DNA from: Candidatus Bathyarchaeota archaeon
GTDB lineage: Archaea > Thermoproteota > Bathyarchaeia > JAPDIZ01
Assembly (NCBI GenBank): GCA_029259355.1
Contig: JAPDIZ010000002.1
Coordinates: 1-64,000 of the forward strand
Reading direction: 5' to 3'
Length of the DNA: 64,000 bases
Shown here: piece by piece, positions 15,298 to 57,771 of the stretch
Numbering within the stretch: position 1 is the first letter of the stretch
Layout of the letters: every line of letters starts with the position of its first letter
Notes under the pieces: generated by a model
Told to the model about the DNA's origin: nothing
The model's input: the letters and a program-made list of their open reading frames with translations, nothing else
Database searches by the model: none
Made by a program: the position numbers and the translations under genes

Positions 15298-16136
15298 CCA
15301 ATCGCTAGAAACTCAAAGAAGTCTAGGAGGAGAGATGCTGCGCACGTGCACAGCACAGCCGCGAAGAGGAGCCAATCCCTCTTGGGTATGGGAGCGAGGT
15401 TAGCGTGGAATCCAGCGCTGGAGTACCCTCTAGCCTTCATGGCTAGGTAGACGCGCTCGCCTCGCTCATAGGACCTTATGAACAGAGCTGCGAGGATTCC
15501 ACCGAGGTCTTTGAGATATCTCTTGCTGATTCTACGAGGCTTAGTCGGAGACCTCGCTTCTCTAGCTAACGCCATCCTCCGCGCCTCATCCAGTAGCAAA
15601 AATATGTATCTGTATGTTACTGCGGTCATGGATACAAAAGCTTTGGGCAAGCCAAGCCAGTATAGAGCGCGTGTAATATCTGCGAAGCGTGTGGTGAGGG
15701 TTAGGAGAACGAGAGCGTAGACACAGACCCACACCCGTAAGATGAAAGCTGTTGCTCGGCAAACACCCTCCTTCGTCGCTTCAAGCACTCCCCAAGGCGT
15801 TGGGAGCGAAGCCGCTGGAGAGCCAGGGGTTGTGAACGCTATGGGAAGTGCGATGATCGCGGCGAAGAAGGGTATGAAGAACGTAGTCCTCCAGGCAAGC
15901 ACCCTTATAGGGATTTTTGAGAGAGCCGAAAGCAATAGGAGAGTAGCGAGTATTGGGATAAGCGCCCAAGGAGTTTGAGCTAAAACGGCAGTAACCACTA
16001 AAGCAGCAGACGCGAGGAGCTTTGGCCTAGCATCGACCCTCTGCAGGAGTCCAGGCTTATCGCAGTAGCTTTCTTGGTAAAAGAAGTCTCGCATAGCCTC
16101 AAACAGTCCGCTCAGCGATGACACCCTCCTCCTCAT
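15285..16136 (-). CDS. cbiQ: Cobalt/nickel ECF transporter T component
   Basis: Integral membrane coupling protein with about five helices. The cytoplasmic motifs that bind the ATPase are present as ALAREARS and YLAMKARGY; the second is the Ala-Arg-Gly form of the T-component signature. The frame stays open upstream into the cbiN-like gene, but ATG 16136 gives the family-standard N-terminus (FEAMRDFFYQESY followed by RVDARPKL), so the longer reading is rejected. Confidence 0.88.
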   Translation of the reverse strand: MRRRVSSLSGLFEAMRDFFYQESYCDKPGLLQRVDARPKLLASAALVVTAVLAQTPWALIPILATLLLLSALSKIPIRVLAWRTTFFIPFFAAIIALPIAFTTPGSPAASLPTPWGVLEATKEGVCRATAFILRVWVCVYALVLLTLTTRFADITRALYWLGLPKAFVSMTAVTYRYIFLLLDEARRMALAREARSPTKPRRISKRYLKDLGGILAALFIRSYERGERVYLAMKARGYSSAGFHANLAPIPKRDWLLFAAVLCTCAASLLLDFFEFLAIGWCV

Positions 16137-16156
16137 AAAAAGGGAGGGTTTTTGGC

Positions 16157-16438
16157 TCAAGATCTCTTCCTTAGGACAGCCCCTACTCCCCATGCAGCTG
16201 CTAGCGTAAGCAGCGTAAAGGCTACTCCAATTATGATGTTTACGGCTACGTTGCCCTCTAAGCCAGGGACTTCGTAATCGGGAAGTGGAGCGCTCCAAAT
16301 CGACGCTTCCTCCGCGCCAAACTCCTCGGCGACGACATCGAAGGTTTCGTTTGACTCTGCTAGCCACACACAGCCGATAACCACGAAGAGCACCGAGAGC
16401 AGCAGCCCCGTATACAGTAGCTTCTTGTCGACGACCAC
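16157..16438 (-). CDS. cbiN: CbiN-like PDGLE-domain subunit
   Basis: A small protein with two transmembrane helices flanking an extracytoplasmic loop that contains LPDYEVPGLEGN, the PDGLE-type motif found next to or fused with CbiM in Co/Ni ECF transporters. GTG 16438 is chosen because it gives a short basic N-terminus before the first helix and sits four bases from the cbiM stop. CbiN-type subunits help load metal into CbiM. Confidence 0.82.
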   Translation of the reverse strand: MVVDKKLLYTGLLLSVLFVVIGCVWLAESNETFDVVAEEFGAEEASIWSAPLPDYEVPGLEGNVAVNIIIGVAFTLLTLAAAWGVGAVLRKRS

Positions 16439-16442
16439 TTCA

Positions 16443-17138
16443 CTACCCCCCGCTCGCAAGCACATCGGAGATGGGTAGGTCGCCCAGCCAGCTCGGCGAA
16501 ACCTTTGGAAGTTGCAGCAGATCTGGTCTAGACCTCATGAGCGCATAAAGGATAGCTGCTGTTACTACGCCTTCACCGACTCCAATAACCGAGTGGTGAG
16601 TAGCCATAGCAGTGACAGCGATTTGCACGCTGTAGGGAAACGTAACCGATAGCCCAAGCTCTAGCCCCGCAAATACAGCGGCGAGTACATCGCCGAAGAA
16701 AGCGCCGAGGAAGGCCCCTGCCAAGAGCCCCTCCTTGGTTCTCCACGCCCTCGTAATCGCTAGGCACACAATGTAGGGAACGAAGACGCCTACGACGCCC
16801 ATGTTCCACACGTTAGCGCCGAAGGTGGTTATTCCTCCATCGCCAAAGAACAGCGCTTGTATCAGCAGGATCACTGTCATCGAGATCAAGCCAGCGTATG
16901 GTCCTAGCGTTATGCCGAGGATGGGACCTCCAAGCAGATGCGCTGTGGTGCCGCCGACTATTGGGTAGTTCATCATTTGAGCAGCAAAGAACATTGCCGT
17001 CAAAACTCCCATCAATGGAACCAGCTGTTCATTAAGAGCTTCTCTAGCCTTTCTGAAGCCGAAGAACCAGAAGATGGCTGTTGCAGCAAAGCAGATAGCG
17101 CATATCGCTGGCGAAAGAAAGCCGTCTGGGATATGCAA
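16443..17138 (-). CDS. cbiM: Cobalt/nickel ECF transporter substrate-binding component
   Basis: Integral membrane metal-binding subunit. TTG 17138 gives MHIPDGFLSP, the invariant N-terminus of CbiM/NikM in which His2 ligates Co2+ or Ni2+. The upstream in-frame residues are therefore not part of the protein, and GGAGGAG precedes this TTG. Further landmarks are NYPIVGGTTAHLLGG and THHSVIGVGEGVVT. Whether cobalt or nickel is imported cannot be decided; no B12 or hydrogenase gene is in the window. Confidence 0.93.
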   Translation of the reverse strand: MHIPDGFLSPAICAICFAATAIFWFFGFRKAREALNEQLVPLMGVLTAMFFAAQMMNYPIVGGTTAHLLGGPILGITLGPYAGLISMTVILLIQALFFGDGGITTFGANVWNMGVVGVFVPYIVCLAITRAWRTKEGLLAGAFLGAFFGDVLAAVFAGLELGLSVTFPYSVQIAVTAMATHHSVIGVGEGVVTAAILYALMRSRPDLLQLPKVSPSWLGDLPISDVLASGG

Positions 17139-17194
17139 CCTCTTCTCCTCCGTAGCACTTTTTTCTAATTTAGTAACACTGAAAAGAGTGCAGT

Positions 17195-17207
17195 AGCTTA
17201 TAAAGCT
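17195..17207 (-). promoter_or_regulatory. TATA element of the cbi operon
   Basis: AGCTTTATAAGCT on the minus strand (AGCTTATAAAGCT on the plus strand) is a TATA box inside a short AGCTT inverted repeat, about 57 bases before the cbiM TTG. Confidence 0.45.
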
Positions 17208-17527
17208 TTGCGCTACAACCCTCCTACACAAAAGGTTGAGAAGCCTCGATAGTCAGCAGAGTAGCTTTTTAGTCGTTGCTATAAGTCACTTGCTGTTGAA
17301 AGCCAGAAGAGCCAACTGAAGCATATTTACAATGCCCGTCAACTCGCTAGCTTGGGGGAAAGTGCTTTGTGTCGCATATAGGCGAAGGCAGAAACATCGC
17401 TGGTAATGAAAATGTTAACCGAGATATTCAACAGCGAGTTTTGAGATCCCATCTACTCTTCCTCAGATGCCATAGGCAATCTCGCAACCAATTACAGAGC
17501 TCTTTATTACATCTTCTTATTGCTATT

Positions 17528-21811: not shown

Positions 21812-22980
21812 GTGGTGTGGGTGACCGAGCCCTACCCCGTAGTAGATGAGCGTGGAGAAGTTAGAAAATACGTCGGCAGCTAGACAGAGTTCACCCTCTT
21901 GAGATCAGCGGGGAAGCGAGGAGCTCTTTCTGTGGACTAGGTCTAGAGCCTACCGCGTGGACTACTTGGTTAGCGAGGGGTTTTTGCGGTTTGGAGAGGC
22001 AGAAGGTGCCGCTGGAGAAGTGGGTTGAGAAAGTCCTAATAGCCCACGGCTACGTAGCTCCAAGCCTAGAGGATTACGCTTATGAGCTGGCGAAGCGGGT
22101 TTGGGAGAAGCTTTTGGGGAAGAAAGTGCTTCTCTCCTTCAGCGGGGGAGGGGATAGCACCGCCTGCCTCTTACTCCTCCTCAAGCTCTCCGAGATGGTA
22201 GGCTTTGAAGTGAGGGTTTGCTACGTCCACATACCCTACCTCGAATCCGACGACAATCCACGCTTCGTCGAGTAGATCTCGCAAAGGCTTAGCGTAGAGA
22301 TCGACGTGATTTCACCGCCCAAGAAGTTGGTTAGAAGGTACTTGCTCAAGTATGGGCTTCCCTATAGGAGGATACGCTGATGCACCTACCTTAAGGTCAA
22401 GCCCCTTCGCTTGATGGCTAAGGAGCTTGGCGCTAACTACGAGGTAGCTGGCGACAGAGTTTGGGAAGCGACTAAGAGGATGAGGGGGTTTGCGGCATAC
22501 GCTGCTAAGGAGAGCTTGCTCGAGGGGAAGAGGTTTGGGCCCATCTACGCCCTTACCATGCTGGACGTAGTCAGGGCTTGTAGAGAAGCTGGCGTAGTTC
22601 ACCTGCACTACTTGCGTGGGCTCAGCAGAGTAGCCTGCGCCTACTGCCCCTACAAGTCGTCCTACGAGCTTTCACTCGGCCTTCAACCCGAAGACCCAGG
22701 CTTCGTCGAGGAAGTGTTGAAGAAAAGCTATAGCCGCTGATATTCTCGGCACATCAGCTATGAAGACTTCGTAGAGCACCACCTTTGGAGGTATGTCCCA
22801 TCGGTTGCCAAGATGTTTGCGAGGGTGAAGCGCTCCGCAGCCGATGCTTTAGGCGAAATCCCCTGCTTAAGCATTAAGGAGGTTTCTGAGATGTACAGAA
22901 GCTCGTGGACTATGCTAACCCCCAAAGCCCCCATGTACTCGCTCAAAGAGATCATGAACCTCTCGAAGGAGAAGGAGTAG
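21812..22980 (+). pseudogene. PP-loop / PAPS-reductase-like gene with several frameshifts and nonsense codons
   Basis: From GTG 21812 protein-like sequence can be followed to TAG 22980 only by changing frame near 21880, 21912 and 21995 and reading through TAG 22273, TGA 22378 and TGA 22738. Recognisable pieces are LFLWTRSRAYRVDYLVSEGF (N-terminal), the PP-loop SFSGGGDSTA (ATP-pyrophosphate binding), a CTYLKVKPLRL segment as in adenylyl-sulfate/PAPS reductase-like proteins, and CAYCPYKSSYEL. The 22378 TGA stands where relatives carry Trp before Cys-Thr (RWCT). Six lesions in ~1.17 kb point to true decay. The 3' end overlaps the convergent ATPase gene by 29 bases. Confidence 0.78.
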
Positions 22981-25726
22981 GTGCTTGAGAACCAAGCCTA
23001 CTTGCCAAAACCTTTCCCAAGTCGATAAGCGCTAAGCTCGTCAAAGCAATGGGTACGCAGATCACGAGGTCTTGTAGGCTTAGGGACGTGGTGTGACAAA
23101 GCATCTGCGCAATAGGGTGGTATATGATGAGTAAGGCTAGAGCTATCGAAGAGGCTATACCGAGGACAAGGTACTTGTTTTTGAAGAAACCCACCGCATA
23201 AGAGGGATATCTCTCAGACCTGCAGGTAAAGGCTCTGCCCATCTCTTCAACGGCTAGCCACCAGAAAAGAACGGTTTGCGCATAGATCAGCTCAGCCCCC
23301 GCACTTAAGTAGCTGCTAAAGAGCAGGACACCGACTAGAGCCATCCAGAAGCCACCAAAGGCTATGATGGCATTGACTCGCTTAGTGAAAACTCCCTCCC
23401 TGGGGTCTCTCGGAGGCCTCTCCATTATGTCCGGGTCTGGCGGGTCTACGCTTAAAGCGATTGCTGGCAATCCGTCAGTTAGGAGGTTTATGAGGAGTAT
23501 CTGTATCGCAACGAGCGGAAGCGGTAGGCCTGCGAAGGCAGCTGCAGCCATAAGCGAAACTTCTCCAACGTTGCACGAAAGCAGAAACATAAGGTACTTT
23601 TTTATGTTGTCGAATATCCCCCTACCCTCCTCTACCGCAGCCACGATGGAGGCGAAGTTGTCATCCGTCAACACGATCTCCGAAGCCTCCTTGGTGACAT
23701 CAGTTCCCCTAATGCCCATCGCAACCCCCACGTCAGCTCTCTTCACCACTGGAGCGTCGTTTACGCCATCTCCCGTCATCGCAACCACGTGTCCCCGCTT
23801 CTTCAAAGCATCCACTATCCTCACCTTATGCTCTGGAGAAACCCTTGCGTATACTATCACATCGTCCACAACCTTCAGCAGCTCTTCGTCACTCATCTCG
23901 TCGAGCTCTGCTCCCGTCAAAACGCGCTTTTCATCGTCTGAACTTAAGATGCCCACTTCCTTAGCGACTGCGACAGCGGTGAGCTTGTGGTCTCCAGTAA
24001 TCATGACCACCTTTATCCCTGCTCTCTTACACCTCTCCACAGCTTCGTAGACCTCTTTCCTAGGGGGATCGATCATGCCCTGCAACCCGACGAACACCAA
24101 GTCCTTTTCGAGATCTTCGGGGGACGAAGCCTCCCAACCGCTTCCCAGCTCCTTGTAGGCTACCGCAAGCACCCTAAGCGCTCTAGAAGCCATGTCGTAG
24201 ACAACCTCCAGTATGCTCCTACGCTCCTCATCGCTTAGCTCCTTGACTACGCCACCCACCTGCACATACCTACACAGCTCTAAGACGACTTCGGGAGCTC
24301 CCTTGACGTAAGCGAAGAAGCTTTCGCCTACTCGGTGAACGGTGCACATGCGCTTCCTTTCGGAGCTGAAGGGCATCTCCCGCACCCTAGGGTATTTCTC
24401 AGCAAGCGCTTGCTGAGAAATACCAGCCTTTATCGCTGGAAAGATGAGCGCAACCTCTGTGGGGTCTCCGAAAACCGACACATTCCCGTTGCTCAACACC
24501 ACTTGAGCGTCGTTGCAGAGAACCCCTATCTCGAGCGCTTTCCTGAGGTCTGGATCTTCTAGCGGGCGAACCTCTTGCCCATCCAGCGAAAAGCTGCCTC
24601 TCGTTTCGTAGCCCGTTCCCGAAACCCTGTAGAGCTTGTTGCCTGCATAGATTTCCCTAACAGTCATCACGTTTTCGGTTATGGTCCCCGTCTTGTCTGA
24701 GCAGATGACGGTCACACTTCCGAGAGTCTCCACCGCGTGTAGCCTGCGCACGATAGCGTTTCTCTTAACCATTCTATGGACTCCGACGGCTAGTGAGATG
24801 GTGACTACGGCGGGAAGCGCTTCGGGAACAGCCGCTACAGCTAGGCTGACGCCCCAGACGAAGCGCTCAACCAAGACCTCCCGCGTTATCTGTTCAACCC
24901 TCAGCAGCCCCAGCACCGTAACCAAGGCGGTGATGGCTACGCAAAGCAGGATCAGCCACTTGCCAACAGACTCAAGCCTTTTCTGAAGAGGGGTTTTCTC
25001 CTCTTCAACCTCCTTCAGCATCTCAGCTATCTTCCCAAACTCTGTCCTCATCCCGGTAGCTACGACTACGGCTTTTCCGCGCCCATAGGTGCAGTGAGTG
25101 CCAGCAAACACTATGTTGGCTCTGTCAGCTACTGGCGTATCCCTCGGAAGGGGGTCGATGGATTTGGGCACTGGGGTTGACTCGCCCGTAAGCACAGATT
25201 CGTCCATCCTCACCTCGTGACACTCGATGAGGCGAGCGTCGGCAGCAACCCTCGTCCCAGCTTCGATTAGCAGAATGTCTCCAGGAACTACTTCACGAGC
25301 TGGGATTTCCCTAACAACCCCTCTCCGCACAACTTGCGCGGTTGGAGCGGATAGCTTCTTTAGCATCTGAAGAGCTCTCTCTGCGCGATACTCTTGGAAA
25401 AACCCGAGAAGCGCTATCATGAAGACGATAGCGAGTATCATGGACGCGTCCAAAACCTCGCCAATAGCCAGAGAAATCAGCGAAGCAGCAATCAGCAAAA
25501 GAACGAGCGGCTCAGCAAACTGCCTAGCTAGGAAGAGGAGGGGGGATTTGGGCTTTTCTACCTCTATCTCGTTTGGGCCAAATTCCTCAAGCCTCTTCTT
25601 CGCTTCCTCGTCAGCGAGTCCCTCCTCTGACGTCTTTAGAAGCTTCAGCACCTCCTCAGCTCTGAGAGCGTGTGCTTCTATCATCACACAACTTCCTAGC
25701 TTAGGGGTGCCTCCCCGCTGCGCCAT
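22952..25726 (-). CDS. P-type Ca2+-transporting ATPase (P2A)
   Basis: A 924-residue cation pump, exporting Ca2+ across the membrane at the cost of ATP. The phosphorylation motif SDKTGT, the A-domain VLTGES, nucleotide-domain KGAPE, MITGDH and hinge TGDGVNDAP are all present. Transport-site residues fit Ca2+ pumps: PEALP in M4, SCNVGEV in M5 and NLLTDGLPA in M6. The start may be ATG 25726 or ATG 25684 ([12 protein letters not shown]), the latter matching the usual N-terminus better. It is monocistronic and convergent with the PP-loop pseudogene. Confidence 0.92.
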
Positions 25727-46028: not shown

Positions 46029-46478
46029 TTAGTAAACTTTTCCTAGTCTGCTTAATTGATCTACCAAGATTGCTTTTTTGCTTAGTGTGGGTGGGAGTTT
46101 AGCTACTAGCTTCTTGTCTGATGTGACTAAGATGCCTTCTCTAGTGGTTGCCATTGCGATGTATACGGAGTCGTATACGCTTAGCCCATGCCTAAAGGAG
46201 ATCTTCAGCGCTTCTCTCCAGCCTCTGCTTCCCAATGAGGTGATTATTCCCAGCTTAGCAAGTGCTTCAACTGCTTTGTAGATGTCGTCTGGGTCTAGGG
46301 TGATGAAGCGGTGGTATCTGAGGGCGTTGGCTACTTCGTATAGGATGAGTGGCGGGGCTTGGAGAAATGCTTCACCGCTTAAGTACTTCTCCAAGAGCTT
46401 TCGCGCAGCTACACTGTGTTCTTCTGGAACAAACCACTTGACAGCTGTTGATGCGTCAACTACGTATAGGCGAAACGC
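46029..46478 (-). CDS. vapC: VapC-type PIN toxin without a canonical start codon
   Basis: The full PIN domain begins with YVVDASTAVKWFVPEE (first Asp, residue-4 type), then LILYEVANAL (Glu), SVYDSVYIAMA (Asp) and LVTSDKKLV (SxD), complete for RNase activity. The frame is open from 46478 (after TAG 46479-46481), but between there and the TTG at 46394, which is inside the domain, there is no ATG, GTG or TTG. GGAGGG at 46488-46483 would place initiation near 46475 (TTT). The vapB stop lies inside this start region, so coupling or frameshifting from vapB is possible. Confidence 0.75.
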   Translation of the reverse strand, partial: AFRLYVVDASTAVKWFVPEEHSVAARKLLEKYLSGEAFLQAPPLILYEVANALRYHRFITLDPDDIYKAVEALAKLGIITSLGSRGWREALKISFRHGLSVYDSVYIAMATTREGILVTSDKKLVAKLPPTLSKKAILVDQLSRLGKVY

Positions 46479-46723
46479 CTATCCCTCCACTCTCTAATGG
46501 CTTGGGCTGAGTCGTATTCGATGTCTCCGTATTCTCTGCGTAGTCGGCTCCAAATCTCGTCAATTACTTCCAAAGACTCTCTTATTCGCTGCCGCTGCTC
46601 CTCTCTTTCGATGGCTTCTTCAAAGGCTTGTCTAGCGACTTCGCTCCAGTTTATGTGTCGATACCTCTTCATCTTTTCGTGAAGCTCTTTGGGCACTCTT
46701 ATCGAGATCAGCTTGGAGCTCAT
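46460..46723 (-). CDS. vapB: VapB-type antitoxin
   Basis: An 87-residue antitoxin: LISIRVPKELHEKMKRYRHINWSEVARQAFEEAI is a ribbon-helix-helix/VapB-type DNA-binding region, and the C-terminal ~40 residues would neutralise the toxin. ATG 46723 is 16 bases from the end of aglB, on the same strand. It overlaps the VapC frame at its 3' end, as usual for such pairs. Confidence 0.8.
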   Translation of the reverse strand: MSSKLISIRVPKELHEKMKRYRHINWSEVARQAFEEAIEREEQRQRIRESLEVIDEIWSRLRREYGDIEYDSAQAIREWRDRRFAYT

Positions 46724-46739
46724 CGCATATACATCGTAT

Positions 46740-48512
46740 TTACTGAAATATAGGTGTTCCGTAGGCTGTTGAGACGCATCTCTCCGCAGCGGTTTGCTCC
46801 CACTCGACTCTGTAAATGGCGACGTGTTGATTCGAGTATACTTTTTTGAAGCAGGTTAGTTCGTGGCTTAGGTCTGGAGCGACTCCTTCGATGCCGGTAA
46901 CCATCTTAGCTAGCAAGCACTTTCTCGTAATCACCCAACCACCTCCTTCCCACTCGAAGGCGTCTTCAGCCTCAGCCATATCGGCTATAGCCCAGCTCTT
47001 GGGGATTTCTAGGAGAGAGACAGCTACATAGGTTGGGCGTCCGCGTAAGCCAAAGGCTTTATCAAGCATCGATAGAGCCTCGTCCTCGTTTTCAGACATA
47101 AAGAACTTAGCTATCTCAGGGCTTCCGTAGGAGGCGTTTACAGGATCGGATATGGTGGCTCTCTTGGCGTAGTACTGTATTATGTAGCCATAGTCCCACC
47201 AAGAAACCACCACCGCATCCTGTGGTGAGTTTTGTCTTAGCCAAACGAGGGCATCCGCCCACCCATCGCTGTATGAGAAATCCTGCGAGTATAGCCGCAG
47301 GTATGAGACGGTAGAGCCAGAGCTCCCTACGTAGACGGGGAGGATGGTGGTGGATAGGACGGGGATCAGCGCTAGAGCGATGGCCGCTCTCTCAACCCCA
47401 GCTAGCTTACTAATTGATACTCCGGATAGGATTGAGCAGATGAGCGAGGGGAACATGAGGAGCCTATATTGCGAAAAGACCAAGGGGAGGGAGGTCGCCA
47501 ACAGAGCAGCTATGAGCAGGTAGCTGGGTGTTGAGGCCATGGGGTAAAGAGCTGGAAGAGAAAGCGGAAGCGCAACGTTTACGCAGTTCCACACATCGAC
47601 AGCAGAGGGAACTCTTGATTCGCTGATTATCGGCGATGGATTGAAGACTCGCCCAAAGACTGCGCGATGGCCTCCGAGGAAAAAGGAGAGCACGGCAAAG
47701 GCGGCAAAAGCAACAACCACCCACTTTCTGCCAAGCCTCGCCGCTGCCAAAGGGATTGCTGCAGCCACAGGTCCCAAGAACGCCACGGATTTGAAGAAGG
47801 AGAAGCCGCCGTAATGCGTTGTTGTGAAAGCTGCAAAAACCGAGGGAATGGCTAGCATGAGGAGGTAGTGGGGAATCACTCTCCACGGATTTTTCAGAAA
47901 AAGCGAAGCTGCTGCAGCATATGCAGCCAGTACGAGGTATCCGTACAAAAAGCCCATCCAACACGTTGCGCACACTCCGAGGCAAAGCCCAGCTGCAACA
48001 GCTGCACGTAGATCGCCTTGTTCAAGCGCAAGCAGCGCAAACGCAAAGAAATACATCAAGAAAGGAACTGCAAAAGCTTCTTTGTCGCAGAAGCCGCAAA
48101 AGCTTCGCAAGACGTAGCCAGGAGCTAAAGCAACGTAGAGAGAAGCTAAGACTCCAGACAACTCGTTGAAGGCTCTTTTCGCCAAAGCATATGCTGGGAA
48201 AGCCGCTAAAGGAGCGAAGAAAGCGGGTAGGTGTGGAGCGAGGGCGTGGGGCGATGTCTCAAAAGCTATGGAAAAAAGTGCTATCCAAATCGAGACAAGC
48301 GGAAGCTCAAAGCGCGGATCAAAGCCTGTGGGAAAACGTCGGAGAACATCGATTTTTGGCAATCCCCCATGCATTAGGTATTCGGCATAGCGTAGGTGTA
48401 TGTATGGATCGTCTGTGAGCAATTCGCAGGTGCAGAGGCTTCTCAGCCAAACACCCAGAGCATAAGCGGAGATTAGGGAGAGGAGGGCTAGAGCAAACCG
48501 CCGCACCATCAA
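46740..48512 (-). CDS. aglB: AglB/STT3 oligosaccharyltransferase
   Basis: Membrane enzyme that transfers a dolichyl-linked glycan to Asn of secreted proteins such as pilins and S-layer. TDDPYIHLRYAEY (34-46) carries the first metal-binding acidic motif, RSFCGFCDKE (136-145) the second DxE motif, and WWDYG at 438-442 is the peptide-recognition WWDxG. With 590 residues it belongs to the short archaeal form. It is divergent from the pilus operon, separated by 80 bases holding a TATA box and palindrome, suggesting functional linkage: glycosylated pili. Confidence 0.9.
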   Translation of the reverse strand: MMVRRFALALLSLISAYALGVWLRSLCTCELLTDDPYIHLRYAEYLMHGGLPKIDVLRRFPTGFDPRFELPLVSIWIALFSIAFETSPHALAPHLPAFFAPLAAFPAYALAKRAFNELSGVLASLYVALAPGYVLRSFCGFCDKEAFAVPFLMYFFAFALLALEQGDLRAAVAAGLCLGVCATCWMGFLYGYLVLAAYAAAASLFLKNPWRVIPHYLLMLAIPSVFAAFTTTHYGGFSFFKSVAFLGPVAAAIPLAAARLGRKWVVVAFAAFAVLSFFLGGHRAVFGRVFNPSPIISESRVPSAVDVWNCVNVALPLSLPALYPMASTPSYLLIAALLATSLPLVFSQYRLLMFPSLICSILSGVSISKLAGVERAAIALALIPVLSTTILPVYVGSSGSTVSYLRLYSQDFSYSDGWADALVWLRQNSPQDAVVVSWWDYGYIIQYYAKRATISDPVNASYGSPEIAKFFMSENEDEALSMLDKAFGLRGRPTYVAVSLLEIPKSWAIADMAEAEDAFEWEGGGWVITRKCLLAKMVTGIEGVAPDLSHELTCFKKVYSNQHVAIYRVEWEQTAAERCVSTAYGTPIFQ

Positions 48513-48539: not shown

Positions 48540-48549
48540 TAATTTAAAT
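48540..48549 (+). promoter_or_regulatory. TATA box of the pilus operon
   Basis: TAATTTAAAT/ATTTAAATAT element about 44 bases before the first pilin ATG, directly followed by a palindrome. Confidence 0.55.
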
Positions 48550-48551
48550 AT

Positions 48552-48572
48552 TTGGATGGATTATCCATCCAA
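48552..48572. promoter_or_regulatory. Palindrome TTGGATGGA-TTA-TCCATCCAA, candidate pilus operator
   Basis: Perfect 9-base arms with a 3-base spacer, starting two bases after the TATA box and ending 20 bases before the pilin ATG. The position, overlapping the expected transcription start, is that of a repressor site, which could also influence divergent aglB. Confidence 0.7.
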
Positions 48573-48592: not shown

Positions 48593-49465
48593 ATGCACGT
48601 GAAGGGGAAAAAGTCGAAGAAAGCAGTATCTCCAATGCTTGCTGCAGCGCTTTTGATAGCCATAACGCTCGCCATAGCTGCGGTAGTGGCTTCCACAACC
48701 TCTATGGTTCCGATCCAGAGACCATCTCCCTCAGCTACGTTTAGCACAGAGATAAAGTCGGGAAGCGGCGGATACTTCCTCATCGAGCACCTGTCAGGAG
48801 ACCCTATCCAAACCAAAGACCTCAGAATAGTGCTCGTCACACCAGATGGAACCCAGCACGTAGTCGATCCAAACAGCAACAACACCTTCTACAACGCTTC
48901 GGGGTATCCAACTGAGACGACGGGAGTTTCAGGAAAGGTCCAAGTAGCGCTTTCTGTAAACAAGAAGGATCCGGGGACGCGCATCAGGGTAGAGCTATAC
49001 AATGGAACCGCGTGGAAAGAGGCAGAGGATTCTGGCTTAACTGAGGGAGAAAGCGTGGTCTATCGAATCTTCAACTTCGAACCCTTCGCAGGCAACTACA
49101 CCAAGCTTAAGCTGACCAACCGCAACGGCAATGGCGTTAGCGCTACTTACACCGTTAATTTAGAAAACGGAGACAAGCTTCAGATACTGATGTATGAGTA
49201 CACATCGCCTTGGGAGTTTAAGCCCGGTGAGATGCCCAGCGACTACATAAGCCACCACTTTGGACAATACACGCTTTCGGTTGGTGAAAGAGCTAAGGCA
49301 AACGAGGTCAGGAGCTGGTACACCGTCTTTGGTGGAGTAGACGATGTCAGGGCGTTGTTTGGCGATAGCTGGGATAGCCTCAGCGAAGGCGATGTAGTCG
49401 TTGTGAAGATCGTTCACGTACCGACTGGCAAGGTGATTTGGAACCAGGAGGTGACGGTGCATTGA
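48593..49465 (+). CDS. Archaeal type IV prepilin, large
   Basis: A 290-residue protein with an archaeal prepilin N-terminus: basic KGKKSKK, then AVSPMLAAALLIAITLAIAA, a hydrophobic helix that packs in the filament core; the AVSP form matches the archaeal type IV pilin N-terminal domain. A class III peptidase would cut just before it. The remaining ~250 residues are an extracytoplasmic beta-rich domain with several N-x-S/T sequons (for example NNTF, NGTA, NYTK), possible AglB targets. ATG 48593 follows GAGGTGGAG. First gene of the operon. Confidence 0.85.
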   Translation: MHVKGKKSKKAVSPMLAAALLIAITLAIAAVVASTTSMVPIQRPSPSATFSTEIKSGSGGYFLIEHLSGDPIQTKDLRIVLVTPDGTQHVVDPNSNNTFYNASGYPTETTGVSGKVQVALSVNKKDPGTRIRVELYNGTAWKEAEDSGLTEGESVVYRIFNFEPFAGNYTKLKLTNRNGNGVSATYTVNLENGDKLQILMYEYTSPWEFKPGEMPSDYISHHFGQYTLSVGERAKANEVRSWYTVFGGVDDVRALFGDSWDSLSEGDVVVVKIVHVPTGKVIWNQEVTVH

Positions 49466-49953
49466 GACTGAGTAAGAAAGGGATAACGCCGGTAGTCGCC
49501 GTTGCGATTCTGATAGCAATCACCGTTGCGTTGGTTGCTGCGATAGCAGCTGTTTCCTCCACCGCTCCCACAAATAGGCCAGCGCCCATAGCTACGTTTA
49601 GCGCCGAAGCCTCTGTATCAGAGGGCATCTACATATACCACGAAGGAGGAGACTCCCTTTACGGAGGAGATATCAGGATACAGACGTACATACCGAGCGG
49701 CCTCTACCAAGGAAGCACTTACGAAATCCCCTCTAACAAGATAACTAATTTGAGAACTGGTGCAAGCGCTTACAGCGGAAACATACAGCCTGGAGACACC
49801 TTGAAGGTGTCCAACTTCTACGACGCGTTCTACTACAAATCCGATTGGGGGATATATTACGCTCCAAGCGTTGGTGAGCAGTTCTACATAGAGATCATTC
49901 ACAAGCCAACTGACAAGCTAATCGCTAGAGTCGTGGTTACGGTGGCTCCTTAA
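49462..49953 (+). CDS. Archaeal type IV prepilin, small
   Basis: About 163 residues: MRLSKKGITPVVAVAILIAI start with the GITPVVAVAIL helix of archaeal type IV pilins, a TNRPAPIATFSAEAS hinge shared with the first pilin (QRPSPSATFSTEIK), and a compact C-terminal domain. The shared hinge shows the two are paralogues. TTG 49462 overlaps the preceding stop and follows a perfect GGAGGTGA. A T-rich tract 3' of the gene (49970-49977) may attenuate transcription before the ATPase gene. Confidence 0.85.
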   Translation: MRLSKKGITPVVAVAILIAITVALVAAIAAVSSTAPTNRPAPIATFSAEASVSEGIYIYHEGGDSLYGGDIRIQTYIPSGLYQGSTYEIPSNKITNLRTGASAYSGNIQPGDTLKVSNFYDAFYYKSDWGIYYAPSVGEQFYIEIIHKPTDKLIARVVVTVAP

Positions 49954-50018: not shown

Positions 50019-51527
50019 TTGCGTAGGAGAAAAAGCGCAGAGAGGAGCGTTGAGGTAGATGAGGCTCTATTGGCTAAGCTTTTGGAGCAAAAACTCGATG
50101 AGTTTAGCGACTGCTTGGTCGAGTGGTATTGGATTGAGAAGCCTTGGTATCTCGCTGCCATTATCAGGCGAGGAGATGAGCTAGAGTACAAGTGCGTCAC
50201 GCACGAGCTAACCAGCGTAGAGAAGTCGCTGGAGGTTAGGGTGTACAACAGACTCGTTGATAGGCTCTGCTTCTTAGACCACGACCCTGCCGAAGCTTTT
50301 GCGAGGGAGGCGAGGAAGCTTCTTCGCTACTACTTTCCGAGGCTTAACTCCTTAAGGGAGGCGGTTATTCTCCACCACCTTTGGACGAGGTGCTTCGGCT
50401 ATGAGAGAATGGATCCGCTCATGAAAGACCCCTACATAGAGGATATTTCGTGCAACGGCCCGGGCATACCGCTTTACGTCTACCACATGGGGCATGGTTT
50501 TCTCAGAACCAACATATCCTTCACCGAAGAGGAGATCGACGACTACGTAGCTAGGTTAGCCGAGCTTGCTGGAAAGTTTCTGTCTGCTGGCTCTCCAGTA
50601 GCAGAGGGTGCGCTACCCGATGGTTCTAGGCTAACGGCTTTTTGGAGAAACGACGTCAGCGATAGGGGAAGCGGATTCAGCATCAGAAGGTTTAGGGAGG
50701 AGCCGCTAACCCCCATAGACCTCATCCGCTTGGGAACGCTTTCTCCCGAGCTTGTAGCCTACCTATGGGTTTGCGTAGAGTATGGGCTGAACGCGCTGAT
50801 CTTGGGAGGAACGGCTTCTGGCAAAACCTCTACCCTAAACGCTCTCTGCCTCCTAATCCCCAGCCATCGAAGAATCGTCACAATAGAGGATACGAGAGAG
50901 ATTCGACTACCCCACGAAAACTGGGTTCCCCTCGTCGCGAGGGAAGAGAGGGTGGTCGATGGCTCTAGCGAGCACATAGACTTGATGTTTCTGCTCAAGA
51001 GAGCTTTGAGGATGAGGCCTGAGTATCTCATCGTTGGAGAGGTGAGAGGAGTTGAGGCTAACGTGCTCTTTCAAGCGATGAACGTTGGACACATCGTCTA
51101 CTCGACGATGCACGCAGCCGACCTAGACGAAGCTGTCGCGAGGTTGACCAACCCCCCGATCTCTGTGCCGATGTCGATGCTGATACCACTTGACCTCGTG
51201 CTTGTTCAAGCAGTCACCAAGGTGGGTGGAAGAGAGGCTAGGCGATGCGTTGCGGTGTACGAGGTTGATGGGGTAGACATTGAAGCAAAGCGGTTTAAAA
51301 GCGTTGACAAGCTGTTTGAGTGGCGCGCAGACGGCGACCGCATAGCTCGGATAAGTGAGCCCAAGAAAGCTAGTAGAAAGGTCTCGCTACGCGCTGGATT
51401 CTCGATAAGCGGTTTTTGGGAAGAGCTTGAGAAGAGGACAGAGGTTTTGGAGAAAGCAGCTGCGGAGGGAGTTAGTGGATATAGAGCCTTTATCAATTAC
51501 TTGGGGGCTTGGCTGAAACGAGCATAG
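50019..51527 (+). CDS. Type IV pilus/archaellum-type assembly ATPase (GspE/VirB11 family)
   Basis: A 502-residue hexameric motor: N-terminal domain, then DPYIEDISCNGPG, GSGFSIRRFR (arginine finger region), Walker A GGTASGKTS, Asp box TIEDTREIRLP, Walker B-like YLIVGEVRG, and His box STMHAAD. It powers pilin insertion with the adjacent platform protein. TTG 50019 lacks a Shine-Dalgarno, while GGAGGTG at 49990-49996 is seven bases before in-frame ATA 50004 (IPKLFLRRRK). The nearby ATG 50000 gives only three codons. Confidence 0.9.
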   Translation: MRRRKSAERSVEVDEALLAKLLEQKLDEFSDCLVEWYWIEKPWYLAAIIRRGDELEYKCVTHELTSVEKSLEVRVYNRLVDRLCFLDHDPAEAFAREARKLLRYYFPRLNSLREAVILHHLWTRCFGYERMDPLMKDPYIEDISCNGPGIPLYVYHMGHGFLRTNISFTEEEIDDYVARLAELAGKFLSAGSPVAEGALPDGSRLTAFWRNDVSDRGSGFSIRRFREEPLTPIDLIRLGTLSPELVAYLWVCVEYGLNALILGGTASGKTSTLNALCLLIPSHRRIVTIEDTREIRLPHENWVPLVAREERVVDGSSEHIDLMFLLKRALRMRPEYLIVGEVRGVEANVLFQAMNVGHIVYSTMHAADLDEAVARLTNPPISVPMSMLIPLDLVLVQAVTKVGGREARRCVAVYEVDGVDIEAKRFKSVDKLFEWRADGDRIARISEPKKASRKVSLRAGFSISGFWEELEKRTEVLEKAAAEGVSGYRAFINYLGAWLKRA

Positions 51528-53290
51528 CCTCATCCGCTCTCTACGGCCCAATAGGCTGGCTGCTTAAGGCTAAGCCCGTGAGGAGCTTAGCAGACCACCT
51601 CGACGCACTGCTGCTTAAAGCGAGGAAAGCAGAACCAGGTGATGTCTATCTGTGTAGAGCTTTGTTGATGAGCGCTTTATCAGCTTTTACGGCCTTTGCG
51701 CTCTTCGCAGTGCTTGACCTAGTCGCAGGAGCAGTTCTGCCAGGGATTCTTTCAACCCCCCTCGCTCCTTCAGCCTTAGCTTTTGCTGTGACGCTGTGCA
51801 CGTACTTGGTTTCTCCATACTTGTTGGTGTTTTCGAGGAGGAGCAACATTGACGTAAACCTACACCATGCATGCACCTTTCTCTACGGCGTAACCAAGAG
51901 CGGCGTATCCCTGAAAGAGGCGCTTAAGTCCCTCTACGAGCATAGACACATCTACGGAGCGGTTGCTGAAGAGCTTGGGATAGCGGTGAAGCGATCTGAG
52001 TACTTTGGCGAAAGCATCTACCGATCGCTAGCTTACGTGGCTAAGACTACGTGTTCTCCGAAGCTGAGAGACTTCATCCAAGAAATGATTTCATCAGCGG
52101 AGGAGACCATTGGGGTGGGCGAGTTTTTCAGGAGAAAGTTCGATGAATACTTCGCAGTCGCTGAAGAGACTCAGAAGAGCTTGGTTAGAACGCTGGGGGT
52201 TTTCGGCGAGGTTGCGGTCATCTTCTCAGCGCTAGCCCCAACCGCTGTGCTTACCGCTGGTGTAAGCTTGGGGGTTCTTGCGCCAAGCCTAATCGACTGG
52301 TGTAGGATCTACCTCTTCATCGCCACACCTGTTTTGATTGTTGTGTTGCTGGCTTACATCAAGCTGGCGCACCCATCGGAAAAGATGTGTAGGGTGGAAA
52401 GGGTGGTGAAGCCTCTTCCCACTCCAGCAGCTGAAAGCGCCTTCGAGAAGGAGCTAGACAAAAAGGAGCGGTGGCTGGTGTTTAAAGACGCTCTCAAAAG
52501 CCCCATCAAGCTGTTTTTCCTCTATCCCTGGCTTCCAGCGTTGGCTGGCGTCTCCGCAGTCGCTGCCTTCCTCTTTTTAGCATATCTAAGAGGAGCTTCT
52601 GCCGTTGGATTGATGGCTTTTGGCGCGCTCGGCGTCTGCGCAGTCCTTGCTGTTTGCTACGAGGTGAGGGCTTGGTATGTTTCTTCTATCGAGAAAAGCC
52701 TACCGGGTTTTTTGAGGAATCTTGCAGAGTCTGTGGAGAAGAAAGCAGCTCTCTCCAAGGCGTTTGAAGCCGTGTTGAGGGGCAGGCTTGGGCTCTTGGC
52801 AAAGGAGGTTAGGGCTCTGGAGGCTCATAGGTATGGTCTCCCCCTCAGGAGAGTGCTTTCCATGATCCAGTATACCACAGCATCGCCTGTTCTGAGAAGA
52901 GCGATAAACCTGCTGGTCAAAGCTTCAGAAGCTACGAGAAACCTCAAGGATGTTCTCGCGATGTCTGCGATGGACGCGGAGGCTTACCTAAACCTTAAGC
53001 GAAGCAGGATGCTTACCTCCATAGGCTACGTCGCCTCCATCTACGTAGCCTATGGCGTATTCGTCTACACGCTCTACATCTTGAGGAGCATATCGGCTGC
53101 CCTTTCCAGCCTCTCAGAGTACATCACCATAGTAGCCATTCCCTTGGATCAGCTATACATCTTGGCTGTAGCTATGGCTGTGTTGCTGGGGCTCTTAGCT
53201 GGTGGGATATCCTCTGGAAATGTTTCGAGCGGGTTTAAGCACTCCGTCGTTCTTCTGCTGATCTTCATACTCATGCTGGGGGTTTGGTGA
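51509..53290 (+). CDS. TadC/FlaJ-like pilus platform membrane protein
   Basis: A 593-residue integral membrane protein with two T2SSF (type II secretion F) domains: helices near 55-115, then the cytoplasmic helical domain (VTKSGVSLKEALKSL), helices near 225-290, then a second set from ~340, with a parallel cytoplasmic domain (LAESVEKKAALSKAFEAVL) and three final helices. This is the archaeal FlaJ/TadC duplicated layout, anchoring the ATPase. The start overlaps the ATPase stop by 19 bases and the next gene overlaps its end (GTGA). Confidence 0.88.
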   Translation: MAETSIASSALYGPIGWLLKAKPVRSLADHLDALLLKARKAEPGDVYLCRALLMSALSAFTAFALFAVLDLVAGAVLPGILSTPLAPSALAFAVTLCTYLVSPYLLVFSRRSNIDVNLHHACTFLYGVTKSGVSLKEALKSLYEHRHIYGAVAEELGIAVKRSEYFGESIYRSLAYVAKTTCSPKLRDFIQEMISSAEETIGVGEFFRRKFDEYFAVAEETQKSLVRTLGVFGEVAVIFSALAPTAVLTAGVSLGVLAPSLIDWCRIYLFIATPVLIVVLLAYIKLAHPSEKMCRVERVVKPLPTPAAESAFEKELDKKERWLVFKDALKSPIKLFFLYPWLPALAGVSAVAAFLFLAYLRGASAVGLMAFGALGVCAVLAVCYEVRAWYVSSIEKSLPGFLRNLAESVEKKAALSKAFEAVLRGRLGLLAKEVRALEAHRYGLPLRRVLSMIQYTTASPVLRRAINLLVKASEATRNLKDVLAMSAMDAEAYLNLKRSRMLTSIGYVASIYVAYGVFVYTLYILRSISAALSSLSEYITIVAIPLDQLYILAVAMAVLLGLLAGGISSGNVSSGFKHSVVLLLIFILMLGVW

Positions 53291-53763
53291 AGCTGTCTAA
53301 AAAGGCTCAATCTACTGTTTTGGGCGAGATGGTTATGCTCGTTGTAGCGATTTCGATCGCTACCGTTGTTTCGATTTCGCTCTATAGCGCAGCAACTTCT
53401 TACGCTGAGAGAGAGCAACACGCTACGGTAGCGGTATTCACCGACGTACATGAGTGGTTGGAGCAGGGTCAACCGAAGAAAGAGCTTAGAGTGGTTGTTG
53501 TGCACACTGGAGGCGATGCGGTTAAGCTAAGAGGCACTATAGCGCTAAATGGGTCGGAGCCTCTTCCCTACAACGGAACCCACTACACCGTAGAGGGAGA
53601 TGAGGAGCAACTTGCTGGCAGCGGAAGCTTCGAGCTTTCAAAGCCATTTCGCCATGGAGAGGTTTTGAAGCTTTGGGTTGATTGCACTGAGAAGAGCGGC
53701 GAAGTTGAGATTGTCCTCAGCTCAGAGACTAAGGTGTTGGCCAAGGTTGAGGAAGAACTCTAG
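53287..53763 (+). CDS. Pilin-like minor subunit
   Basis: About 158 residues. MKLSKKAQSTVLGEMVMLVVAISIATV resembles archaellin/pilin class III signals: basic n-region, then a polar AQSTVLGE followed by a hydrophobic helix. The Glu at position five of the mature form is typical of type IV pilins. A small extracytoplasmic beta domain follows with NGSEP and YNGTH sequons. GTG 53287 overlaps the platform-protein stop. Confidence 0.75.
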   Translation: MKLSKKAQSTVLGEMVMLVVAISIATVVSISLYSAATSYAEREQHATVAVFTDVHEWLEQGQPKKELRVVVVHTGGDAVKLRGTIALNGSEPLPYNGTHYTVEGDEEQLAGSGSFELSKPFRHGEVLKLWVDCTEKSGEVEIVLSSETKVLAKVEEEL

Positions 53764-54883
53764 GAGTGGTTGGGGAACTTCTTCTGTGGTGGCAGCAGCC
53801 ATCATCTTGTCAGCGATTATTACCGTCGCCAGCGTGTTCTACGCTGTTGTGTTTCCCGAGCTTATGAGGAGAGCTTCGTTTGAGATGCTTCAAGATGCTG
53901 AGTACGAGCTCCCCCACCTCCTAGAGGGGAGGCCGTGCACCCTTAGGCTTTCGAAGAGCGTTGGCTTACTATCCTTTTCCTCTTCAGTAAGCTCCTCGCT
54001 TTCCTACAGAGACACCGAGGTTTCGAACGTTACACTGGTTGAGGCTTTTGCAGTTGAGCAAAAGGAAGAGCGCTTTGAGGGAAGCGGAAGCATAAGCGAC
54101 GTATCGGGGGTGGAGAGCGCCTACCTGCTTTGCTCAAGCATAAGCGAGGGGGTTGTAGCAAACATCACCTTTTACACAAGCCAAGGATCCCTGGTTTGCC
54201 AGCTCGCCACTGAAGCAGAGACCATAGGCTCTGGCTCATGGATCAGAGCCACGTTATCCTTTTCTCCAGGAGACACCTATCGCTTCACTCTACAAAGCGG
54301 CGACGCTCTATCCATAAACCTCTTCGACCCCCTGTTCAACGCATCCGACTACATATCCAACGCTCACAGCATAGAGTACGATACTAGCGGATGCCAGCTA
54401 TACCTGAGGTACTCTGCTGCTGAAGAGTATAGCCAATCCTTCATCGCATCTGGAGCCCTATCCTACAAGAACAACTACTTGGGCACAGAGTGCGCGATTT
54501 CCCCCATTGGCGTAGTAACGTTTCAAGGAGATAGAAGCAGCCTCGTTTCCCCATCCATTACTTGGGATGACGACGAGCTGGTGGTTGAGCTTTACAACCT
54601 GAGCAACTGCTCGTTCAGCGCGCTTGGAGGCAGCGGATCTGTTACGCTAAAGTCTTACGTGAAGGAAGTTGTTTCGAAAGAGGTCGTAGCAAAGAGAGTA
54701 GAGCTCAGGGTTTTGGATAGCAGATACGAAAATGCCTTCGAAATTCTTGAGCAAGTGTTGGCAGCTAAAGCTCCCGAGGGCGTAGTGGTTTGCTACAATA
54801 ACCAAGTTCTCTCGATATACAGAGAGGACGGTGAAAATGTCTCCCTAAGCCTCCGCGTAAAGGAGGTCTCCATAACATACTAG
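53747..54883 (+). CDS. Pilin-like or tip protein, large
   Basis: About 378 residues. TTG 53747 gives MRKNSRSGWGTSSVVAAAII, with a basic n-region and a hydrophobic helix (SSVVAAAIILSAIITVASVFYAV) as in archaeal pilins; the upstream open frame lacks this logic and is rejected. The long C-terminal region is Ser/Tyr-rich, beta-like and has many sequons (for example NVTL, NITF, NLSN, NVSL), suggesting a glycosylated adhesin or tip subunit. It overlaps the previous gene by 17 bases and ends the operon. Confidence 0.75.
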   Translation: MRKNSRSGWGTSSVVAAAIILSAIITVASVFYAVVFPELMRRASFEMLQDAEYELPHLLEGRPCTLRLSKSVGLLSFSSSVSSSLSYRDTEVSNVTLVEAFAVEQKEERFEGSGSISDVSGVESAYLLCSSISEGVVANITFYTSQGSLVCQLATEAETIGSGSWIRATLSFSPGDTYRFTLQSGDALSINLFDPLFNASDYISNAHSIEYDTSGCQLYLRYSAAEEYSQSFIASGALSYKNNYLGTECAISPIGVVTFQGDRSSLVSPSITWDDDELVVELYNLSNCSFSALGGSGSVTLKSYVKEVVSKEVVAKRVELRVLDSRYENAFEILEQVLAAKAPEGVVVCYNNQVLSIYREDGENVSLSLRVKEVSITY

Positions 54884-56012: not shown

Positions 56013-56130
56013 GTGTAGGCTGAGTCGTATGCGCTTAGCCCATGCCTAAACGAGCTCTCCAAAAGCTTTCGCATAGCTATGCTCTTCTGGGACAAACTGC
56101 TTGACGGCTGTTGAGGCATCGACTGCGTAT
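56012..56130 (-). pseudogene. VapC remnant with internal deletion
   Basis: The minus strand reads YAVDASTAVKQFVPEEHS, nearly identical to the start of the VapC at 46029-46478, then RKLLE joined directly (after a frame change) to SSFRHGLSAYDSAY, which corresponds to residues about 55 further on. The middle and the end of the toxin are missing, and the fragment runs into the calcium-binding remnant. It is a decayed second copy of that toxin. Confidence 0.75.
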
Positions 56131-56136
56131 GGGCGA

Positions 56137-56184
56137 TGTGGGAAAGAGATATATTTGTGGGAAATTCTTTCTTCATGTGGGAAA
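56137..56184 (+). repeat. Three copies of TGTGGGAAA upstream of the AbrB antitoxin
   Basis: TGTGGGAAA occurs at 56137-56145, 56156-56164 and 56176-56184, spaced 19 and 20 bases, about two helical turns, the last directly abutting the antitoxin ATG. Candidate binding sites for the antitoxin on one DNA face. Related words precede the AbrB gene at 17576. Confidence 0.65.
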
Positions 56185-56433
56185 ATGAAGTCGGTAGTTA
56201 GGGTGGATGAGCGGAATAGGGTGGTTATTCCGAGTAGGATAGCTAAGGCTCTGAGGTTGAAGAAGGGGGATGCTCTATGGGTCTGGGTTGAGGAGGGGAG
56301 GGTGGTTATGGAGCCTGCTAAGTCGGTTGCGGATGCTTATTTTGGGAGGTATAGAATCGAGCGGTGGCCAAGCGACTTAGACGCTTTTCTTGTGGAGGTT
56401 GCTAAGAGGTGGTGGATGTCGCGAGATACGTAG
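56185..56433 (+). CDS. AbrB/SpoVT-type antitoxin
   Basis: An 82-residue antitoxin: MKSVVRVDERNRVVIPSRIAKALRLKKGDALWVWVEEGRVV is a swapped-hairpin AbrB domain, followed by a toxin-binding tail with WPSDLDAFLVEVAKRWW. ATG 56185 sits immediately after a TGTGGGAAA repeat. It overlaps the PIN toxin by 25 bases. Intact, unlike its relative at 17576. Confidence 0.85.
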   Translation: MKSVVRVDERNRVVIPSRIAKALRLKKGDALWVWVEEGRVVMEPAKSVADAYFGRYRIERWPSDLDAFLVEVAKRWWMSRDT

Positions 56434-56831
56434 ATGTCAACGTGTTTGTGTATTGGTTGGGAGGGCATCCGGAGCTTGGTGAAAGAGCTCTTGAGTGGGT
56501 GAGGAGGATAGAGGCTGGTGAGAGGGGGAGCTTCGTCACCTCATCCCTAACCATCTACGAAGTGCTCGTGATCTTGGCTGGACTCGCTGGGAAGACGCTG
56601 AGGGACCAGGTGTTTGTTGAAGAAGTTGCTTCAGCTATTGCTAAGCTCTCTGGGCTTAGAGTTGAGCCGCTTAGGGCAGAGGATGTCGAGAGAGCGGTTG
56701 ACCTGATGAAGGCTTATGACATAGACTACGAAGATGCTCTTCACCTAGCTACTGCGCTGAGGGTGGGCGCCAAGGAGATCGTTTCCAACGACAAAGACTT
56801 TGACAAAACTCCTCTCACCAGAGTGCTTTAG
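56409..56831 (+). CDS. PIN-domain toxin (VapC-like)
   Basis: A 140-residue PIN ribonuclease with all catalytic acids: RYVDVNVFVYWL (Asp), SLTIYEVLVIL (Glu), YDIDYEDALHLA (Asp) and IVSNDKDFD (final acidic cluster). GTG 56409 overlaps the antitoxin gene and follows GAGGTGG. It forms a complete toxin-antitoxin pair with the AbrB protein. Confidence 0.86.
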   Translation: MVDVARYVDVNVFVYWLGGHPELGERALEWVRRIEAGERGSFVTSSLTIYEVLVILAGLAGKTLRDQVFVEEVASAIAKLSGLRVEPLRAEDVERAVDLMKAYDIDYEDALHLATALRVGAKEIVSNDKDFDKTPLTRVL

Positions 56832-56874: not shown

Positions 56875-57771
56875 TTGTTGGAGATGCTTGACCTGATTAG
56901 CTCGGTGGATTTGCGTGAGTTTCGCGGGATAAAGAGCTTGGAAAAGCCTCTTCCGCTAAAGCGCTTCACCGTTCTTTTGGGCGAAAACGCTTGTGGAAAA
57001 ACCTCTGTGCTAGACGCTCTCTCGCTCCTCCCCCATCCAAACGCTCCCACGCCCAAGCCGCTGAACGTGGTAAAGGACTGCGGCCACAGAGCAGAGGTTC
57101 TCAAAACGATTAGGGGTAGGTTTGAGTCGCTAGTCTATGGCTACGAGGGAGAAGCTGTTGTCCATGCCTCTGTTGGTGGGAGAGAAGCTGTTCTGGAGGT
57201 TTCGTCCAAGGGTTTTGGGAGAGCTCGTGGCGATGGCTCGCGCTCGCTCGATGTAGGTGAAGCCTGCACAGCCTTTGGGTTAGACGTAGACGACGTGGTG
57301 TATCTCCCAAGCTCTGGAATCTTCGTAAGAGCTCTTGAGGGCGGGCTATACTCACAGTGGCCTATGGTCGAGAAGCGGGGTGCGCACACCGCTGCCTCAG
57401 AGGTCTTTGGAGACGAGGTTTCTGAGGTGGTTCCACGGTTCAACGAGCTTTTTGTGAGGAGGGTTGTGGGAGGCATATCTAGGTACGTTAGGCTTAGGGA
57501 CGTGGGTGCTTTGGAGAGGACTCTGTTGGCTGTTACGTGGATAGAAGTTTTGAAGCCTAAGGTGGTTCTCTGGGATGATGTAGACGCGGGGCTTCACCAA
57601 ACCGCTGTCAAGGCTTTGGCGAAGTGGCTGAGTGAAGGGGATTTTCAAGTAGTTGCGAGCGCTCACAGCCCTCGCACAGCGGAGCTGTTCAAGGAAGCTT
57701 ATGCTGGAGATGTGCAACAACTGGTTTTGAGAAAAGACTTAAGCGATGTCGTGAGCTTTGAGCAGAGGTGA
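56875..57771 (+). CDS. AAA15/RecF-like ATPase
   Basis: A 298-residue ABC/SMC-type ATPase: FRGIKSLEKPLPLKRFTVLLGENACGKTSVLDAL (Walker A GENACGKTS near residue 42), Walker B VVLWDDVDAGLH near 233 with Asp-Asp in place of the usual DEPE, and ASAHSPRTAEL (H-loop). The coiled-coil arm is very short. OLD-family and AAA15 proteins with this architecture often pair with nucleases in defence, but no nuclease is fused or adjacent other than the PIN toxin upstream. TTG 56875 used; ATG 56884 possible. Confidence 0.78.
   Translation: MLEMLDLISSVDLREFRGIKSLEKPLPLKRFTVLLGENACGKTSVLDALSLLPHPNAPTPKPLNVVKDCGHRAEVLKTIRGRFESLVYGYEGEAVVHASVGGREAVLEVSSKGFGRARGDGSRSLDVGEACTAFGLDVDDVVYLPSSGIFVRALEGGLYSQWPMVEKRGAHTAASEVFGDEVSEVVPRFNELFVRRVVGGISRYVRLRDVGALERTLLAVTWIEVLKPKVVLWDDVDAGLHQTAVKALAKWLSEGDFQVVASAHSPRTAELFKEAYAGDVQQLVLRKDLSDVVSFEQR

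Follow-up and report, generated by a model that had tools for sequence, protein, structure and literature searches.

The stretch of DNA analyzed here (64,000 nucleotides, referred to below as the window) contains a type IV pilus operon with a perfect palindrome in its promoter, which raises the question of what signal reaches the pilus genes through this site. The palindrome TTGGATGGATTATCCATCCAA (48552-48572, no strand assigned) consists of two arms of 10 nt each around one central base (TTGGATGGAT-T-ATCCATCCAA). It is separated by one base from the TATA box of the operon (TTTAAATA, 48543-48550, + strand), and by 20 bases from the ATG of the first pilin gene (48593). The initial annotation was thus right about the presence of the palindrome and its distance to the ATG, but had given its center as TTA and the gap to the TATA box as two bases. 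Its proposal that a repressor at this position would block transcription agrees with the location of the site between the TATA box and the first pilin ATG.

We confirmed the 21-bp palindrome, which exceeds chance expectation in the window by a wide margin. Perfect palindromes with arms of at least 10 nt and a spacer of at most 1 nt occurred twice in the window, compared with 0.05 times per dinucleotide shuffle. Allowing up to 3 mismatches, we found no other match to the operator in the window (shuffled sequences: 0.01 expected), and the window contained no match to the operator core GGATGGATTATCCATCC (48554-48570) with up to 2 mismatches besides the pilus site. The longest palindrome of the window, the perfect 34-bp sequence GGTATTTCTCAGCAAGCGCTTGCTGAGAAATACC at 24391-24424, is located inside the reading frame of a P-type ATPase (22952-25726).

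The genes downstream of the site, all on the + strand, have the composition of an archaeal type IV pilus operon. Pilin 1 (48593-49465) and pilin 2 (49468-49953) match Pilin_N with E-values of 8e-14 and 1.5e-11 and carry the class III signals KKA/VSP and KKG/ITP, respectively (the slash marks the cleavage point). They are followed by the assembly ATPase (50019-51527; T2SSE, E 4.5e-30 in Pfam), the platform protein with two T2SSF stretches according to Pfam (51509-53290), and pilin 3 (53284-53763; Pilin_N, E 3e-6; signal KKA/QST). The last gene (53747-54883) encodes pilin-like protein 4, which has a weak DUF7289 match, is kept in two relatives, and most likely starts at the TTG at 53747 (MRKNSRSGWG/TSSVV). 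Altogether, there are three Pilin_N matches, four cleavage motifs of the KKA/KKG/WG type read from the sequence, a T2SSE-type ATPase and, by Pfam, a TadC-type platform. Four pilin-like genes, a single ATPase and a single platform protein, in which Pfam finds T2SSF twice, make up the operon as first described, and no regulator is encoded among the operon genes, also as first described.

A search of the source genome (1.74 Mb, 9 contigs, class Bathyarchaeia) for further copies of the site, as the initial annotation had recommended, led to a single one at a cobalamin locus, with a gene for a DUF4443 protein in its btu operon. The genome contains exactly two perfect core copies, compared with 0.007 expected. 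The second exact copy (contig C1, 226883-226899) lies 3' of a TATA box and 5' of btuF. On one strand beside it we found two btuF genes, btuC, the gene for a corrinoid ABC ATPase (btuD) and the DUF4443 gene; on the opposite strand are a phosphoglycerate-mutase-like gene, cobD, cobQ and cbiB. Near-matches with two mismatches were as common in this genome as in the control (10 vs. 9 in all), and we did not consider them further.

The association with cobalamin genes extends across the class. With the core motif GGNTGGATNATCCANCC, which the pilus site matches with 0 mismatches, and at most one mismatch, we identified 350 sites across 257 Bathyarchaeia genomes, compared with 24 for the reversed control, and 189 of the 257 genomes had a site. 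A TATA match of at least 7/8 within 30 nt upstream was present for 40 of the 57 unique exact sites, but only for 8 of 57 shuffled ones. The commonest TATA spacing of unique exact sites was 3 nt, and the TATA-to-GG distance at the pilus site equals this modal spacing of the 40 TATA-linked sites. According to HMM searches, the genes behind the sites include hemA, cbiM, cobN, cobD, CbiB, BtuC-type FecCD and Peripla_BP_2 (btuF-type) genes; btuD, a ChlI/D-type chelatase and a weakly matching ECF S component were found there as well. Judging from these genes, the site family is a set of predicted operators of a cobalamin/tetrapyrrole regulon across Bathyarchaeia. One-mismatch sites in family f19 looked like noise, lacked TATA boxes in most of the contexts viewed, and were set aside.

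We also note some features of the wider site collection. The exact core was present in 76 of 397 sampled Thermoproteota genomes, with one control match among the matches listed. Exact sites also occurred in f30, f34 and f38, families of the phylum beyond Bathyarchaeia (genomes G259, G288, G301, G378 and others), and the regulon therefore either predates the class or has been transferred. In several genomes (L151, L158, L166, L190), the cbiM promoter carries TGTTGGATAATCC- or the mirror form, a one-mismatch variant that recurs and is possibly a weaker operator adapted to the uptake of cobalt. In genus g28 (L154, L157, L162, L163, L203), the site is followed by genes for very large proteins (700+ aa), secreted or anchored in the membrane, which have long Ser/Thr/Pro-rich stretches and, in some cases, BtuF-like sequence.

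In order to judge whether the operator belongs to the pilus operon, we turned to its orthologs. Only 3 of the 257 class genomes contain the operon: the source genome, G017 and G170. Close homologs of the platform protein were restricted to G017 (E 2e-140) and G170 (E 5e-128), the next best match among the 257 genomes being at 1e-21, and in a tree of about 80 sequences the three ATPases grouped together as one clade (support 1.0). G170 has all six operon genes in identical order. Its pilins 1, 2 and 3 correspond to those of the source genome (30% identity over 337 columns, E 1e-30; E 3e-9; and E 2e-13, respectively), and pilin-like protein 4 aligns with its homologs in G170 and G017 at 28%. When pilin 1 alone was scanned against GTDB genomes, no relatives were revealed. 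The profile of pilin 1 found nothing in G017, where the contig ends roughly 170 bp upstream of the ATPase gene, short of the pilins, so that upstream DNA is readable in two operons only. G017 has no site with up to one mismatch in its genome, and no other related pilus operon was detected near any site fetched.

In G170, the operator GGGTGGATAATCCAACC has the exact core and is located 3' of a TATA box and before pilin 1. Conservation upstream of orthologous operons, named at the outset as a check, was thus borne out in the sole other ortholog with assembled upstream DNA. Since G170 belongs to a different family than the source genome, the conserved operator represents a real footprint. The G170 pilus operon directly follows btuFCD and a chelatase gene, which has a 2-mismatch site of its own. 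A chance palindrome that happens to match the motif has a negligible probability: control matches to the reversed motif do occur, at about 0.1 per genome at one mismatch, but the pilus site is an exact match where 0.007 are expected per genome, shows the usual TATA spacing, and is kept in another family. Going by these sequence comparisons, the pilus operon very probably belongs to the regulon.

The gene on the other side of the promoter deserves separate consideration. An STT3/AglB-family oligosaccharyltransferase (aglB, 46740-48512, - strand, identified by Pfam) is divergent from the operon at a distance of about 80 bp. The TATA box TTTAAATA is nearly symmetric and therefore might also serve aglB on the opposite strand, and one repressor could cover both starts. 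The operator could then be mainly that of aglB and concern glycosylation, with the pilus as a bystander of a shared divergent promoter. We regard this as very unlikely, given that the exact operator in G170 precedes pilin 1 without aglB, that the TATA box there points toward the pilus operon, and that no oligosaccharyltransferase was found behind a site among the sites with named downstream genes. The idea of aglB as the operator's target was rejected because the G170 operon keeps the operator without this neighbor. The divergent arrangement at about 80 bp was described correctly at the outset, but the pairing of aglB and pilus as one unit did not hold up beside the G170 operon; the top STT3 matches of G170 and G017 are on contigs other than those of the pilus operons.

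Several other features of the window were recorded. Small toxin-antitoxin-like pairs flank the aglB-pilus region, one at 46029-46723 (a PIN domain and a weakly CcdA-like partner) and one at 56101-56831 (an AbrB-like gene and a PIN-like partner, from reading the translations). Further downstream than both the pilus operon and the second PIN pair, an OLD/AAA-type ATPase (56875-57771) gave many weak matches in PADLOC. From the translations alone, we recognized a cobalt or nickel ECF transporter resembling CbiO/CbiQ/CbiM (14422-17231); it has no operator.

The initial annotation had argued that an unlinked factor must read the site, and the candidate that emerged, the DUF4443 gene, is indeed outside the pilus operon: it is the final gene (contig C1, 222049-222669) of the btu operon behind the second operator. 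DUF4443 winged-helix proteins were found in 198 of the 257 genomes, including the source genome. Sites were present in 163 of the 198 genomes with DUF4443, but in 26 of the 59 without it (p = 5e-8 in a Fisher test that ignores shared ancestry and genome completeness), and in 15 of 24 genomes checked, a DUF4443 gene was at most 6 kb from a site. The best solved relative of the protein is PH0730 (PDB 2p8t, E 1.9e-19), a homolog deposited as a hypothetical protein, for which no function was found in the databases searched. Gene context and co-occurrence suggest that the DUF4443 protein is, on balance, the regulator that reads the operator.

A second family of winged-helix proteins, DUF7839, is present in 47 of the 257 genomes, flanked by the site in several of them, and could be the reader instead. 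In lineages other than that of the source genome, DUF7839 genes are found beside the site, and in each of G171, G089 and G134 the gene has its own site, which either precedes it or is the point from which it diverges. However, the source genome has two perfect sites and no DUF7839, and five genomes with DUF7839 but without DUF4443 have no site. For these two reasons we favor DUF4443 and consider a DUF7839 reader improbable. DUF7839 regulators preceded by the same site were seen at L190 (about 8053), L194 (about 7752) and L174 (about 2417), and in L190 and L194 the gene is divergent from btuF. In G134 and G038, a DUF4443 gene is close to DUF7839 as well.

The regulator might also sense a metal (cobalt, iron or nickel) rather than cobamide, and the pilus would then serve metal acquisition or electron transfer. 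The regulon does hold cbiM, for cobalt, as well as FecCD-type transporters, and the N-terminus of the DUF4443 protein has weak similarity to MntR. A cobamide or tetrapyrrole signal fits better, however, with cobD, cbiB, cobQ, cobN and hemA in the regulon, and is also favored by the best NCBIfam matches at the second locus, BtuC and the corrinoid-ABC ATPase. Metal sensing is, in our estimate, unlikely.

We consider it likely that the pilus operon is a member of a cobamide (vitamin B12-type corrinoid) regulon and that the palindrome serves as the regulon's operator. The position of the site points to repression rather than activation, and binding between TATA box and transcription start, which blocks initiation, is common among archaeal repressors. 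A winged-helix dimer, most likely of the DUF4443 protein from the btu operon, would bind the site when cobamide is plentiful. Bound between the TATA box and the transcription start, it would block polymerase recruitment, and a single cobamide-responsive repressor would silence both units, pilus and btu/cob. When cobamide is low, the repressor would leave, and the pilus would be made alongside the transporter and the salvage enzymes. Because the operator family otherwise fronts genes for B12 uptake and synthesis, cells probably make the pilus at times of B12 shortage.

What the pilus might do under these conditions is more tentative. By analogy, it may have a role in corrinoid acquisition, a suggestion that we make with some reserve. 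The filament, or a short pseudopilus, could trap corrinoids or display them close to the S-layer, as has been proposed for the sugar "bindosome"; equally simply, the pilus could attach the cell to B12 producers. We did not see a B12-binding domain by sequence, which counts against a corrinoid role. AlphaFold models of pilins 1 and 4 (pLDDT about 50) were too weak to inform function, and a Foldseek search with the pilin 4 model gave no match below 1e-3, only a loose beta-sandwich resemblance. The most specific version, a cobamide-repressed type IV pilus with pilin ectodomains that bind B12-type corrinoids, or material that carries them, and pass them to BtuF, and with DUF4443 as the cobamide sensor, is put forward as a rather doubtful working model.

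Little is known about the signals that switch archaeal pili on or off, and a specific pilus type would here be tied to B12 supply. The analysis names DUF4443 as a testable regulator, which, if confirmed, is possibly the first archaeal cobamide sensor to be identified. It also delineates a predicted B12 regulon and its operator across Bathyarchaeia, a class that is abundant but mostly uncultured, and offers a direct hypothesis for the way in which an archaeon might collect a cofactor that is both large and scarce.

A palindromic archaeal CBL-box before cobalamin genes, together with a hypothetical B12 regulator, was reportedly proposed by Rodionov et al. in 2003. The present site resembles it in its description, as a palindromic operator before archaeal cobalamin genes with a protein regulator. 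To our knowledge, Bathyarchaeia, the pilus operon and the DUF4443 candidate were not part of that proposal. In the literature searched, neither the control of a pilus by B12, as proposed here, nor the assignment of DUF4443 as a B12 regulator had been described.

The Sulfolobus bindosome (Bas) is a type IV pilus-type assembly that serves nutrient uptake (PMC2910488, PMC4858521). It shares with the present system, as a model of how it might work only, the type IV pilus-type machine, a small pilin set and the tie to nutrient uptake, which for the present pilus is a proposal. In contrast to Bas, the operon described here has no gene for a solute-binding protein; the N-terminus of BtuF from the source genome (MRKKLYLLAAFAIFLLAI) lacks a clear class III signal. 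With archaeal type IV pili in general, as surveyed in the census of Makarova et al., 2016 (PMC4858521), the operon shares pilins with class III signals, one ATPase and one TadC-type platform. The census describes many regulators of type IV pili, and the word cobalamin is absent from it; the difference of the present operon from the pili of the census (PMC4858521) would be its control by a vitamin regulon.
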